NCBI GenBank assembly: GCA_015499995.1
Contig: JADNRV010000259.1
Location: 1 to 64,000, forward strand
Reading direction: 5' to 3'
Length of the DNA stretch: 64,000 nucleotides
From: Flammula alnicola
Lineage: Eukaryota; Basidiomycota; Agaricomycetes; Agaricales; Strophariaceae
Shown in pieces: positions 21,814-39,655 of the stretch. Each line of letters opens with the position of its first letter. The first letter of the stretch is position 1. Below the pieces are notes generated by a model. It made no database searches and was not told the origin of the DNA. It was given only the letters and a program-made list of their open reading frames with translations. Both the position numbers and the translations under genes were made by a program.

Positions 21814-22215
21814 CACTGCAAGTGCAATCGTCAAATTTACCACTGCGGACGAGACCAGTGACATCGCCAATTACTTAATCCGACAGACCGAGGAGCAAGC
21901 CGACGAGATGGCCGACGGTAACCAATCAAAATAGGAGGTAGAAATTTCCTCCCACCGCGTCGATTGGACAGATCCAAGGATGTATGGTTTGGGCAGAGTC
22001 GCAGGCTCGCAGCATAAGTAGTGCCAGTTACATCGGTCGGAATGAGGTCCGTTGCCGGGAGTGCCTTTGTGGTCAAAATGTCCCGGGAGCCAGCACAAAG
22101 GTATACGATGCACATGGCGAAGTGCAGGAACTTCAAGGCAAAGAGAAAGCTTCCATATTAAATTTGTTGTTTGTTCGACTAAGCAATATATTCGCCAACG
22201 TAAAAAGTATCTGCC
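21814..22215 (-). pseudogene. Hydrophobin relic, left copy
   Basis: A decayed hydrophobin. The leader AGTCGAACAAACAACAAATTT just before the former start copies the 5' untranslated motif of the intact genes (AGTCGAACA...CAAATTC). Downstream, GNGPHSDRCNWHYLCC echoes the N-terminal cysteine cluster. The minus-strand sequence around 21850-21900 aligns with hydrophobin exon 2 (LLLGL...VGDVTGLV, as in the gene at 27247). Frames are broken. A second copy lies at 39010-39381, so decay predates the duplication. Confidence 0.5.
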
Positions 22216-23272
22216 GAATGGCCGTAAAGAAGGTCTCCACAATTAACAGGGGGAAGCAATGATGTTTGCCTGAAGAGTCTAGACATTAGAGCGAGGGAAT
22301 CATGGCTGTCAATCGTGTCAAGATAACCTGTACGCGGTATGATGAAGACGCGCGGTTGCGATGAACCTATCGGCGCACGGTTTCTAATATTATCGCATTG
22401 TTTTCATTGGACATTCCTTTGTCCGTACAGAGGGCTTTCGGCGTCCTGTGATCCGAATAATTGACTAGAGGTCCAATGTATTGTACATACTGACAGATGT
22501 CACTTAATAGACTAGCAAACCCCAGAAGGAGAAACTTTTTGTGTGAATAAATGAATGTGGGGACGCACATGGAGTCAAATGAAACTATAAATTTATATCT
22601 CGCTCAGCCGATGCGCAGACTTCGGACGCGGAAGAATTAAGACCTTGGGAGGTTAAAAGTGTGGGTATGCTCACATATGTGCGCATCCAATCTTTCTTGC
22701 TATCAGAGCCAAGCAACATAGAGGATGTCGCCTATAGGGTCTTTTTCATACCCACATGGAGCTCTGGTCTTCGGTTTTAAACATTGGAGATGAGAACAAA
22801 GAAAAGAAAGAACTGCGGTTTTCGTAAGATCTCGTTTCTACAAGAAATTCGAAGTTCATATAAGTGTATCATAACGCCTCTTACGACGTGATTTTCAATA
22901 AATAGCTCCAGCTGGGAGAGTTCGGGATTCGGAGGGAAGACTCCGATGTACCTGCAGTATGTCAGTGGTTCGACTTCTGGTCGGCTGTATACGATTGAAA
23001 TCGGGTAGAAATGTGACTAAAGACGGGGTCATTATTGCTCACTCACGGTGATGGTATACAAGCAAGGTAAAACATTCCAATTCCGGGATGCTCCACAATC
23101 AATCCACAATTGTTGATCGACGTGAGATCGCCCTTGATCTAAAGATAGATCGACCCAACTCAAATATCTCAAATACAATATTTCGTGCAATATCAACATA
23201 AAATTTCGACCGACCGATTCATACAAGGACGTTAAGTAGATCCCCCAATAATTCCACCCGAACTAGGATCAA
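22216..23272. other. 3' flank of hydrophobin, inside left arm
   Basis: About 1 kb that is duplicated at 38066-39009. Short frames such as CVPTF(I/T)YSHKKFLLL occur in both copies but show no domain. No independent gene is supported. Confidence 0.45.
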
Positions 23273-23778
23273 TCAAAGGTTGAGGTTAATGGGAGTGCAA
23301 CCAAGAGCAATAAGGCCATTCTACGAGACATCTAGTAAGCTTATTGTGCGATTCATGAATTAAAAATAAACATACGAAAGAGTCGTTCGTGCAGCATACC
23401 GGCTGGGCAGAGCAGGAGGTGCCACTAGCGCCAACGACGGTGATGGGGGAGCAGGTAACTGTAAAAAGAGATTTTAAATTAATGAACTCTCATTACAGTT
23501 GTCGAACATACCACCGACGAGGCCAGTAACGCTGCCAATAGGAATGCCCAAAAGACCGAGGAGGGTACTAACAACGCTCGAGGTGGCCTAGCAGACAATG
23601 AAAACATGCTTGTCAGTACATTTGAATATCACTCCTCGATAGATAAACTGACGGATTGAGTGGAATCGCAGCACTGGATGCTGCCAGTGTCGCATTGGTT
23701 GGACTGGCGGGGAAGAACACTGGCGGCCGCAAGGATGGGGAGAGCGAGGACAAAGACAGAAGAAGCGCGAGCGAACAT
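23273..23778 (-). CDS. Class I hydrophobin
   Basis: Small secreted amphipathic protein that assembles at air-water interfaces and coats hyphae and fruiting structures. Four exons (23778-23653, 23587-23512, 23458-23376, 23320-23273; introns 65, 53 and 55 nt) give 110 residues. The first 20 or so (MFARASSVFVLALPILAAAS) form a signal peptide. Eight cysteines follow the class I order: C-x6-CC-x32-C-x12-C-x5-CC-x12-C. The donor of intron 1 is GTCAGT. A TATA box lies at 23856-23865, followed by the shared leader CAGTCGAACAACAG. Intron 1 is identical base for base to that of the gene at 25239. The homologous gene in the right arm is at 37554-38065. Intact. Confidence 0.94.
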
Positions 23779-25238
23779 GTTGAACTTGTTTGGAGTTGGA
23801 GAGATGTCTTTAGTTGAACTGTTGTTCGACTGATGAATATACTGCAAACCAGCCGCCTTTTATACGTCTCTGCCTACGGATTTTAGAATATATGTATTCC
23901 TGTCGATCTGTAAGCAAGGAAAGATCTCCCTAAACAGTGAGACAGATACTACGTGAGCCGAAGACATGATCGTGCAGAATCCCACCACCAAAAAAGGGGC
24001 TCCAAAGCTGTCAAATCGTAGTAGCGGCTGTTGTTCACGCCGTGATGGTCTATTTAAAGTCAGCTTCCATCTTTCACTGCAAAATAAGATCGGCCACTCC
24101 ACTGTGTGAGCTCTCGAAATCCATGCAAAGACGATTTGCTTCTTCCTTCTTGGCAGCATGATCTTTGCTTCTTTGGGATCCGAGATGTAGACTTGAGCGA
24201 AAGTATTCAAGTCTCCTACGTTAGGCTACGCTGTGCGATGCCTCCGAATTGATCTTAAAGGAGGACTGGTTGCCTTCACTTTCTGCAGACTCGGACCCGG
24301 CCGAGCTTGATCCGAATAGAAGATAGGTCAGTTATGCACTGGATTGCAGTCCCCTCGGACAAGACAGCACACCCGGGAACTATCTAAACCGAATATTCGA
24401 AGGTCTAACACAGCCAATAAATTCTACAACATACCACGAATTAGACCGCCGGTGGTCCGTGTCCATTCTTCGAATCAAGATCTCGGAGGGATGGTTAAGA
24501 GTGGGATATAGGATGAAGATGAGCTCTGAACAGGTTGTTATCATCCTATAAATCTGACGATTCTGTTCCAGCCCATGAATGCGTGAATCCCGAAGAATAG
24601 ACCCGGCAGATAATCCGACTCGGATTCGTGGACTCGTCGGATGCTCCACATCGAAAGTGACCGGTGACCTGTACCCAGAACATACCTAGACCACTGCCAC
24701 GAGGATCCATGATGATACCTGTCTCGGGATGTGAACATTCGAGCTTCTTGACACAAAAAACTTGGATCCAGAGGATTAATTTAGTTCTTCACTCCGTCCT
24801 GAGTTCAGTCGCGATCAAGTTAATATCTGCATATCATTGGTTATCATAGGTAGTTATGTCAGAGTCATATAAAATAAGTAGATCTGGATATCTGGCCGCT
24901 TTCCAGCAGATTTCGGGCTTCGTGAGTCAAAAGAAGCATTCTGAATATAGGTGCGGAATTCGAGTCGGTCCAAAGTCCCCAGGTAGGTTATGGGTAGCGC
25001 GAGCACGTACCCTCGGCGAAAGCTAAAAATAGAGAACTACTACAGGTACTTACTACCTCTTCTCGAAGAGTTTATGACCTATGTATGATACACGTGTGCA
25101 TCTGCAAAACGTCTCTATGCATATAAGGCTTCTCTTCAAGATAGTTTAAATCAGGAGTCAAACATATATATGTATTATTTTCTTGTATTTACAACATATT
25201 ACAAAACTCGGCGCCCTATCCATTTCAGACTGAATCTC
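23779..25238. other. Hydrophobin spacer, left copy
   Basis: 1.46 kb between two hydrophobin genes, duplicated at 36104-37553. It holds the promoter of the downstream hydrophobin. A frame of about 89 residues at 24649-24380 (minus strand; HPTSPRIRVGLSAGSILRDS) stays open in both copies. The copies differ by a 6-base in-frame indel, but no domain is recognisable and conservation may only reflect recent duplication. Confidence 0.4.
25023..25032 (+). promoter_or_regulatory. CTAAAAATAG motif
   Basis: MADS/Rlm1-type decamer about 1.25 kb upstream of the hydrophobin at 23273-23778. The duplicated counterpart is at 36306. Confidence 0.4.
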
Positions 25239-39009: not shown

Positions 39010-39381
39010 TGGCGAATATATTGCTTCGTCGAACAAACAACAAATTTAATATGGAAGCTTTCTCTTTGCCTTGAAGTTCCTTCACTTCGCCATGTGCATC
39101 GTATACCTTTGTGCTGGCTCCCGGGACATTTCGACCACAAAGGCACTCCCCGGCAACGGACCTCATTCCGACCGATGTAACTGGCACTATGCTGCGAGCC
39201 TGCGACTCTGCCCAAACCATCCATCCTTGGATCTGTCCAATCGACGCGGTGGGAGGAAATTTCTATTATTTGAATGGTTACCGCCGGCTATCTCGTCGGC
39301 TTGCTCCTCGGTCTGTCGGATTAGTTGGCGATGTTACTGGTCTCGTCCGCAGTGGTAAATTTGACGATTGCACTTGCAGTG
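39010..39381 (+). pseudogene. Hydrophobin relic, right copy
   Basis: Same relic as 21814-22215, with GTCGAACAAACAACAAATTTAA just before the lost start and an exon 2-like stretch ending VGDVTGLV near 39345. Homology to the left copy stops at 39381, and the next bases are the hydrophobin core promoter. Confidence 0.5.
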
Positions 39382-39385
39382 ATGT

Positions 39386-39655
39386 TATAAAAGGGAGACA
39401 ATTCTGCAGTTGGTTCTTCAGTCGAACACACAACAGTTCTACTACTACTCAAACAATCTCTCCCAACTCCAACAAATTTGACATGTTCGCTCGCGCTTCC
39501 CAGTCTGTCTTTGTGCTCGCTCTCCCCATTCTTGCGGCTGCCAGTGTCCGTCCCCGCCAGGACAACCAATGCAACACTGGCGGCATCCAGTGCTGCGACT
39601 CCACTCAATCCGTCAGTTTATCTATCAAGGAGTGATATTCAGAGGTACTAACAAC
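39386..39655 (+). pseudogene. Hydrophobin core promoter, exon 1 and start of intron 1 (split copy)
   Basis: TATA box at 39386-39394, leader nearly identical to that of the gene at 25239, and exon 1 at 39483-39611 (MFARASQSVFVLALPILAAAS...CNTGGIQCCDSTQS). Intron 1 begins GTCAGT at 39612 and is lost after about 39655. Exon 1 has an added Gln codon in the signal peptide and Arg for Leu before PRQ. With no exon 2 downstream it cannot make a hydrophobin, though it may still be transcribed. Confidence 0.85.

Follow-up and report, generated by a model that had tools for sequence, protein, structure and literature searches.

The stretch of Flammula alnicola DNA analysed here (the window) comprises 64,000 nucleotides of contig JADNRV010000259.1, forward strand, positions 1 to 64,000, and contains a cluster of hydrophobin genes together with an inverted copy of part of that cluster in which the order of the pieces is permuted. 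The window contig, C178, is 67,700 bases long, and it was compared with a counterpart, C834, from the same assembly (74.4 Mb in 861 contigs).

The hydrophobin array and its permuted copy

The array consists of four genes, hydX, hyd1, hyd2 and a relic, spaced ~1.7–2 kb apart on the minus strand. The hyd1 gene (25239-25758, with its TATA box at 25855) runs from start to stop in an open frame and encodes 113 amino acids with eight Cys; the same is true of hyd2, which is present in a left copy (23273-23778, minus strand; 110 amino acids) and a right copy (37554-38065, plus strand; 110 amino acids). The third intact hydrophobin of the array, hydX (27247-27764), has an open frame for 116 amino acids with eight Cys and a counterpart, P0008, also of 116 amino acids, among the annotated F. 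alnicola proteins. All eight hydrophobin genes of the two contigs, four on each (hyd1, two hyd2 copies and hydX), splice into open frames with eight Cys. Within the window, hyd1 and hyd2 are 89% alike in self-BLAST, and the hyd1 protein, the sole hydrophobin scanned, matched Pfam PF01185 (E 3.6e-25). With this domain, eight cysteines and several exons, the proteins are ordinary Class I hydrophobins of Agaricales, and it is the arrangement alone that is special. Other species likewise list several homologues on contigs of a single length, four of Pholiota conissans on 221,130 bases being an example.

Self-BLAST of the window (threshold E ≤ 1e-5) revealed an inverted match of 23124-25591 to 38218-35751 (93.1% over 2502 columns), an inverted match of 21810-22808 to 39384-38391 (92.3% over 1011 columns), and a match of 25581-25857 to 39654-39384 (88.6%, E 2e-90), which together exclude chance similarity of the two sides. 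We refer to the left and right copies in the window as A_L and A_R, and to those on C834 as B_L and B_R. A_L (21815-25580, minus strand) contains part of the relic, hyd2, and exons 2-4 of hyd1 up to intron 1, and matches 35751-39380 in inverted orientation. A_R (35758-39380, plus strand) contains exons 2-4 of hyd1 without exon 1, hyd2, and a truncated relic. The two arms are ~3.6 kb long and identical at 3339 of 3515 aligned bases (95.0%). The truncated hyd1 lacks exon 1 on both contigs; in the window a gap of one base interrupts exon 3, and B_L has lost everything between late exon 2 and early exon 4.

The right copy is bounded by three junctions. At J3 (35751-35766, plus strand; counterpart C834:188770-188785, minus strand), the copy starts inside intron 1, weakly from 35751 or clearly from 35758 (188785 and 188778 on C834). 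At J1 (39370-39395, plus strand), mid-relic sequence abuts the TATA box of a leader of hyd1 type, and base-level alignment places the joining point at 39380-39385. At J2 (39650-39665, plus strand), the start of intron 1 is joined to the right flank, with the exon-1 piece ending at 39655/39656 (202998/202999 on C834). The letters of J1 and J2 are identical at C834:202709-202734 and C834:202993-203008, respectively, and all three junctions are present on both contigs, so that they are not private to the window contig. Between J1 and J2 lies an orphan exon 1, exon1’ (39385-39655, plus strand), comprising the TATA box, leader, exon 1, and the start of intron 1. The initial annotation had described an inverted right copy that is opened in intron 1 and has its exon-1 piece at the far end; self-BLAST and base-level alignment agree with this anatomy, with the joined outer ends and the opening point within a few bases of where it had put them. 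Just past J2, an 82-base motif (39702-39783) recurs, 80–88% alike, at 19 of 24 genome matches, including six copies on C668 and five on C57.

The left boundary needed revision. The relic is a decayed fourth hydrophobin at approximately 21687-22180 (minus strand), detected by blastn to hyd1 (59% over 372 columns, E 1e-5) and to hydX (E 2e-6 and 6e-4). In the left locus, this similarity extends from ~22180 to ~21687 and crosses 21814, the limit of the match to the right copy, whose relic is cut at the equivalent point. The left segment had been taken to end at 21814, but since the relic continues across it, this position is the cut point of a copy and not the end of the left locus. For the same reason, J1 could equally be a deletion junction or a tandem-duplication junction.

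The sequence of exon1’ is composite. Its leader and TATA box agree with hyd1 of A_L at 93 of 97 positions and with hyd1 of B_R at 84 of 91, compared with 63–67 of 86–90 for the hyd2 copies. Its coding part matches hyd1 at 111 and 113 of 126 positions, hyd2 at 114–116 of 126, and the C834 hydX at 112, and the start of the intron is closest to the C834 hydX (42/44, against 38–40 for hyd1 and hyd2). By these comparisons, exon1’ is of hyd1 type only in its TATA box and 5’ leader, with a mixed coding part. The suggestion that the fragment might come from a separate, third hydrophobin gene is therefore at odds with the leader and is neither upheld nor dismissed by the coding part; neither clean reading stands. 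The allele of the orphan exon on C834 has a stop codon in exon 1.

Opposite orientation of the interval on a second contig

Each window base was assigned the strand of its best match to C834. In the left flank (3230-21814), 18220 of 18585 bases matched on the plus strand, none on the minus strand, and 365 had no match; on the right, 39381-39786 was entirely plus (406/406), and 39787-60417 had 17264 plus, 0 minus, and 3367 unmatched bases. Both arms were largely plus as well (3456 plus and 310 minus for 21815-25580; 3546 plus and 84 minus for 35751-39380). The region between the arms was minus throughout, with 0 plus, 2697 of 2973 minus, and 276 unmatched bases in 25581-28553 and 7172 of 7172 minus in 28579-35750. 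These counts indicate that the ~10-kb interval between the copies is inverted relative to C834, between flanks that remain collinear, and that in both arms the strand switches at the inner end. The inverted interval (25581-35750) contains exon 1 of hyd1, hydX, an aminomethyltransferase-like open reading frame, and a coronin-like gene, and Pfam found GCV_T, WD40, and DUF1899 domains in it. The name coronin is our assumption from the combination of WD40 and DUF1899.

The order on C834 differs accordingly. Its right locus reads hydX, an entire hyd1 that has kept an exon 1 of its own (198710-199230), hyd2, the truncated relic, J1, the orphan exon 1, and the right flank. In its left locus, the copy is inverted, breaks off within intron 1 and points towards the central segment. 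Relative to each other, the orphan exon 1 and the remaining exons 2-4 of the split gene are inverted. The orphan exon and the truncated copy share one break in intron 1, where they overlap by 5 clear or ~12 likely bases; 9 of the 12 match, which has a chance probability of ~4e-4, uncorrected. The hydX alleles of the two contigs differ unusually (116 amino acids in the window versus 110 at C834:196708-197209), with surrounding matches of 89.7 and 92.6%, and the first exons of the C834 allele look converted by hyd2-type sequence.

C178 and C834 are likely the two haplotypes of a dikaryon, as judged from similarity and copy number. Their long collinear stretches are mostly 94–97% alike, with some shorter ones at 80–92%. 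The RNA polymerase subunit family gave 18 matches on 6 contigs, in which two paralogues clearly have two copies each (C387/C57 and C90/C2) and a third possibly has two (C112 and C680).

Similar inverted repeats flank a segment that occurs in both orientations with collinear flanks, and the orientation switches at the ends of the repeats. This kind of event, inversion between inverted repeats, is already known. In humans, inversions between inverted repeats of 1.6–24 kb are polymorphic and often recurrent (PMC3961182). The likeness extends to a several-kb segment between several-kb inverted repeats with both orientations in existence, to an orientation change that falls inside the repeats or where they end, and to the conversion between arrangements that is discussed there; the present case differs in that the repeats are paralogous mushroom gene clusters ~95% alike, one gene is split between the two loci, and two contigs only are compared. 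Literature searches, judged by their listings, turned up no account of this locus. With both orientations of a compact natural locus in one assembly, it may help to ask how often inverted repeats of gene families flip or convert in mushrooms.

Origin of the permuted copy

We favour the reading that the window shows one of two opposite orientations of the 10-kb segment and that its permuted copy probably arose by two ordinary inversions, without a circle. The starting point would have been two units in tandem, with J1 at the beginning of the second. An inversion with breaks in intron 1 of the first gene of the second unit and at the present right flank would then have parted exon 1 from exons 2-4 and turned the units into inverted repeats, giving the C834 order. 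Recombination between these repeats would subsequently have flipped the interval, so that the truncated copy came to have exon 1 at its far end, as in the window, and gene conversion among the copies may have kept most of the arms ~94–96% alike. On C834, the unit and the truncated copy are inverted, matching the prediction of one inversion of a tandem array; by reasoning, though not by construction, turning around the C834 interval between the two breaks would produce a simple same-strand tandem array. Arms that are 95.0% alike are a substrate for the recombination.

The short overlap in intron 1 fits a staggered break, or else an exchange guided by a few matching bases. Inversions by staggered breaks that leave inverted duplications have been described in Drosophila subobscura (PMC5080602), where an inverted duplication at a breakpoint and a gene broken by the inversion resemble the present locus; the difference is that the overlap here is ~5–12 bases and lies at one breakpoint only. 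The overlap also bears on a quite unlikely alternative, in which template switching during replication, or duplication and deletion in successive steps, produced the truncated copy and the exon-1 piece by separate events. By eye in the alignments, the two sides of J1 share ~1 base, as would suit template switching, and conversion and deletion are common at this locus, as the exon loss in B_L illustrates. Independent events, however, would have had to stop within ~12 bases of the same point in intron 1.

The permutation had been read in the initial annotation as the signature of a circular DNA intermediate. According to this explanation, the segment from the middle of the relic to the hyd1 TATA box was circularised at J1 and integrated at the right flank via the intron-1 break, and a later flip gave the C834 order. 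The permuted geometry, with its outer ends joined and one complementary opening point in intron 1, is as a circle would leave it, and a plain inverted duplication would indeed yield neither this geometry nor the shared break. The hyd1-type leader of exon1’ also agrees with a circle, and permuted reinsertions of extrachromosomal circular DNA are documented for Region B of wine yeast (PMC3053389). The step from permutation to circle is what does not follow: a single inversion of a tandem array suffices for the C834 order, and one further flip between the copies for that of the window, so that a circle is not forced by the permutation and, given C834, is not needed. The relic that crosses 21814 likewise speaks against permutation alone as a signature.

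The comparison with documented circles points in the same direction. Wine yeast Region B shares with our locus a circularly permuted gene order and little homology at the junctions, but it has several opening points where there is one here, and in our case C834 offers a non-circular path (PMC3053389). Copies opened at different points were not seen, the same J1-J3 being present on both contigs, and no further permuted copy was among the 22 best genome matches. An empty site was looked for in two genome searches: one gave 3 matches (C178, C834, and a 56-base piece on C778), and the other gave 24 matches, including C178, C834, 65% on C745 and C255, and 19 with a short repeated motif. The circles of cattle colour-sidedness reportedly also show a circular permutation of gene order with little junction homology; against them, too, our locus has one opening point and a non-circular path on C834.

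A_L and A_R, at 95.0%, are no more alike than positional partners across the contigs (94.9 and 95.9%), although conversion could hide a difference, and the coding part of exon1’ is no closer to hyd1. We tried to decide between inversions and a circle by the pairings of the copies, but both predict the same pairings. Altogether we regard the circle as possible, though unlikely. The caution for other loci is that a permuted duplicate, commonly attributed to a reinserted circle, can come from a tandem array by an inversion and a flip, and that the second haplotype is what reveals this route.

An assembly error, in which the flip or the entire permuted order is false in one contig, was also considered. 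Inverted repeats of ~3.6 kb are classic sites of misjoins, and C178 is short (67,700 bases). On the other hand, both contigs carry J1-J3, with 149 differences among 3600 aligned bases between their right arms; exact identity between the window copies, flanks included, extends over at most 101 bases; and a false flip requires two reciprocal misjoins. We therefore consider misassembly very improbable.

Gene conversion has probably blurred the history of the arms. B_L and B_R are 93.5% alike overall, but only 88.5% in the part nearest the relic, compared with 94.4% in the remainder. In that same part, A_L is 96.0% like B_R and 89.5% like its positional partner B_L, and between 21.87 and 22.36 kb the left arm is of right type while its flank is of left type. 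This indicates that the window's left arm has taken up right-type sequence. In addition, hyd2 of B_R resembles hydX in the last part of exon 3 and in intron 3. Owing to such conversion and mixed sequence among the copies, the crossover cannot be placed, and within-arm variants were given up as a means of fixing it because their signal is blurred. A joint reciprocal switch, tried at every switch point over 223 sites, was equalled by 13 of 5000 shuffles, which treat linked sites as independent and so flatter the fit; with 128 sites, after two suspected conversion tracts chosen after looking had been dropped, it was equalled by 8 of 5000.

Several points weigh against the two-inversion reading. 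An intact tandem array, on which the proposed starting point and first inversion depend, was seen on neither C178 nor C834, and a clear duplication at the second breakpoint was not seen. Integration of a circle in intron 1 followed by a flip would produce identical sequences, so that the choice between the two rests on how common such events are. The likely allelism of C178 and C834 is drawn from similarity and copy number. Finally, a single switch over the 223 sites gave p 0.013 in A_R (36.76-36.91 kb) and p 0.29 in A_L (23.49-23.58 kb), and the joint fit places the exchange near 24.28 kb in A_L and 37.05 kb in A_R, whereas the best matches switch at the inner ends of the arms.

A stronger version of the inversion between the arms, in which they act as a recurrent flip-flop and repeated recombination in the population keeps reversing the 10-kb segment, seems to us unlikely. 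If it were true, exchange and conversion would re-sort the hydrophobin variants associated with each flank, and the two nuclei within a single mushroom would carry opposite orientations together with different hydrophobin sets.

A Helitron-like insertion and neighbouring genes

A further, partial copy of the locus lies on contig C778, where 135428-137488 repeats parts of C834:186195-188841 (99.5% over 1950 columns and 100% over 115 columns), with ~0.6 kb missing between the two pieces relative to C834. It is part of a Helitron-like insertion at ~C778:134956-138557, which is absent from the near-identical contig C329 (near 1952). The insertion starts at A/TC and has a hairpin 7 bases before a CTAG that ends at C778:135430. 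Past the CTAG, it continues with 2.06 kb from the left hydrophobin copy, J3 among them, and then with 1069 bases of another repeat. The family end occurs 15 times at ≤2 mismatches and 0 times in the reversed control. In 14 placements from these 15 matches, the base before TC is A in 9, the CTAG of another element in 3, and irregular in 2; in the 3 of 14, the CTAG of one element is followed directly by the TC of the next, which places the elements head to tail.

Helitrons of Pleurotus are described with a 5’ TC, a 3’ hairpin followed by CTRR, and insertion after A, and the same source cites a read-through model (PMC4289320). The C778 insertion has these structural ends, and its sequence would fit a capture of the locus by read-through past the 3’ end. 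A rolling-circle transposon was also considered as the cause of J1-J3 and rejected, as neither the Helitron 5’ end nor its hairpin nor the beginning of the adjacent repeat (E2) turned up in C178 or in C834:165001-225000 with one substitution allowed. We therefore take the C778 copy as a separate event.

A tRNA search of the window found none. Beside the left arm, two open reading frames at 18308-21481 (minus strand) have weak metallo-beta-lactamase matches, one of the DNA-repair type, below the Pfam cut-offs. Farther right, 44741-46644 and 50604-52533 form a duplicated stretch that is 80% alike, and with a cytochrome P450 domain in 51946-52644 these are likely tandem P450 genes. Two similar open reading frames on the minus strand (53736-54284 and 58600-59163) are likely laccase-like, a multicopper-oxidase domain being present in the first, the only one scanned.

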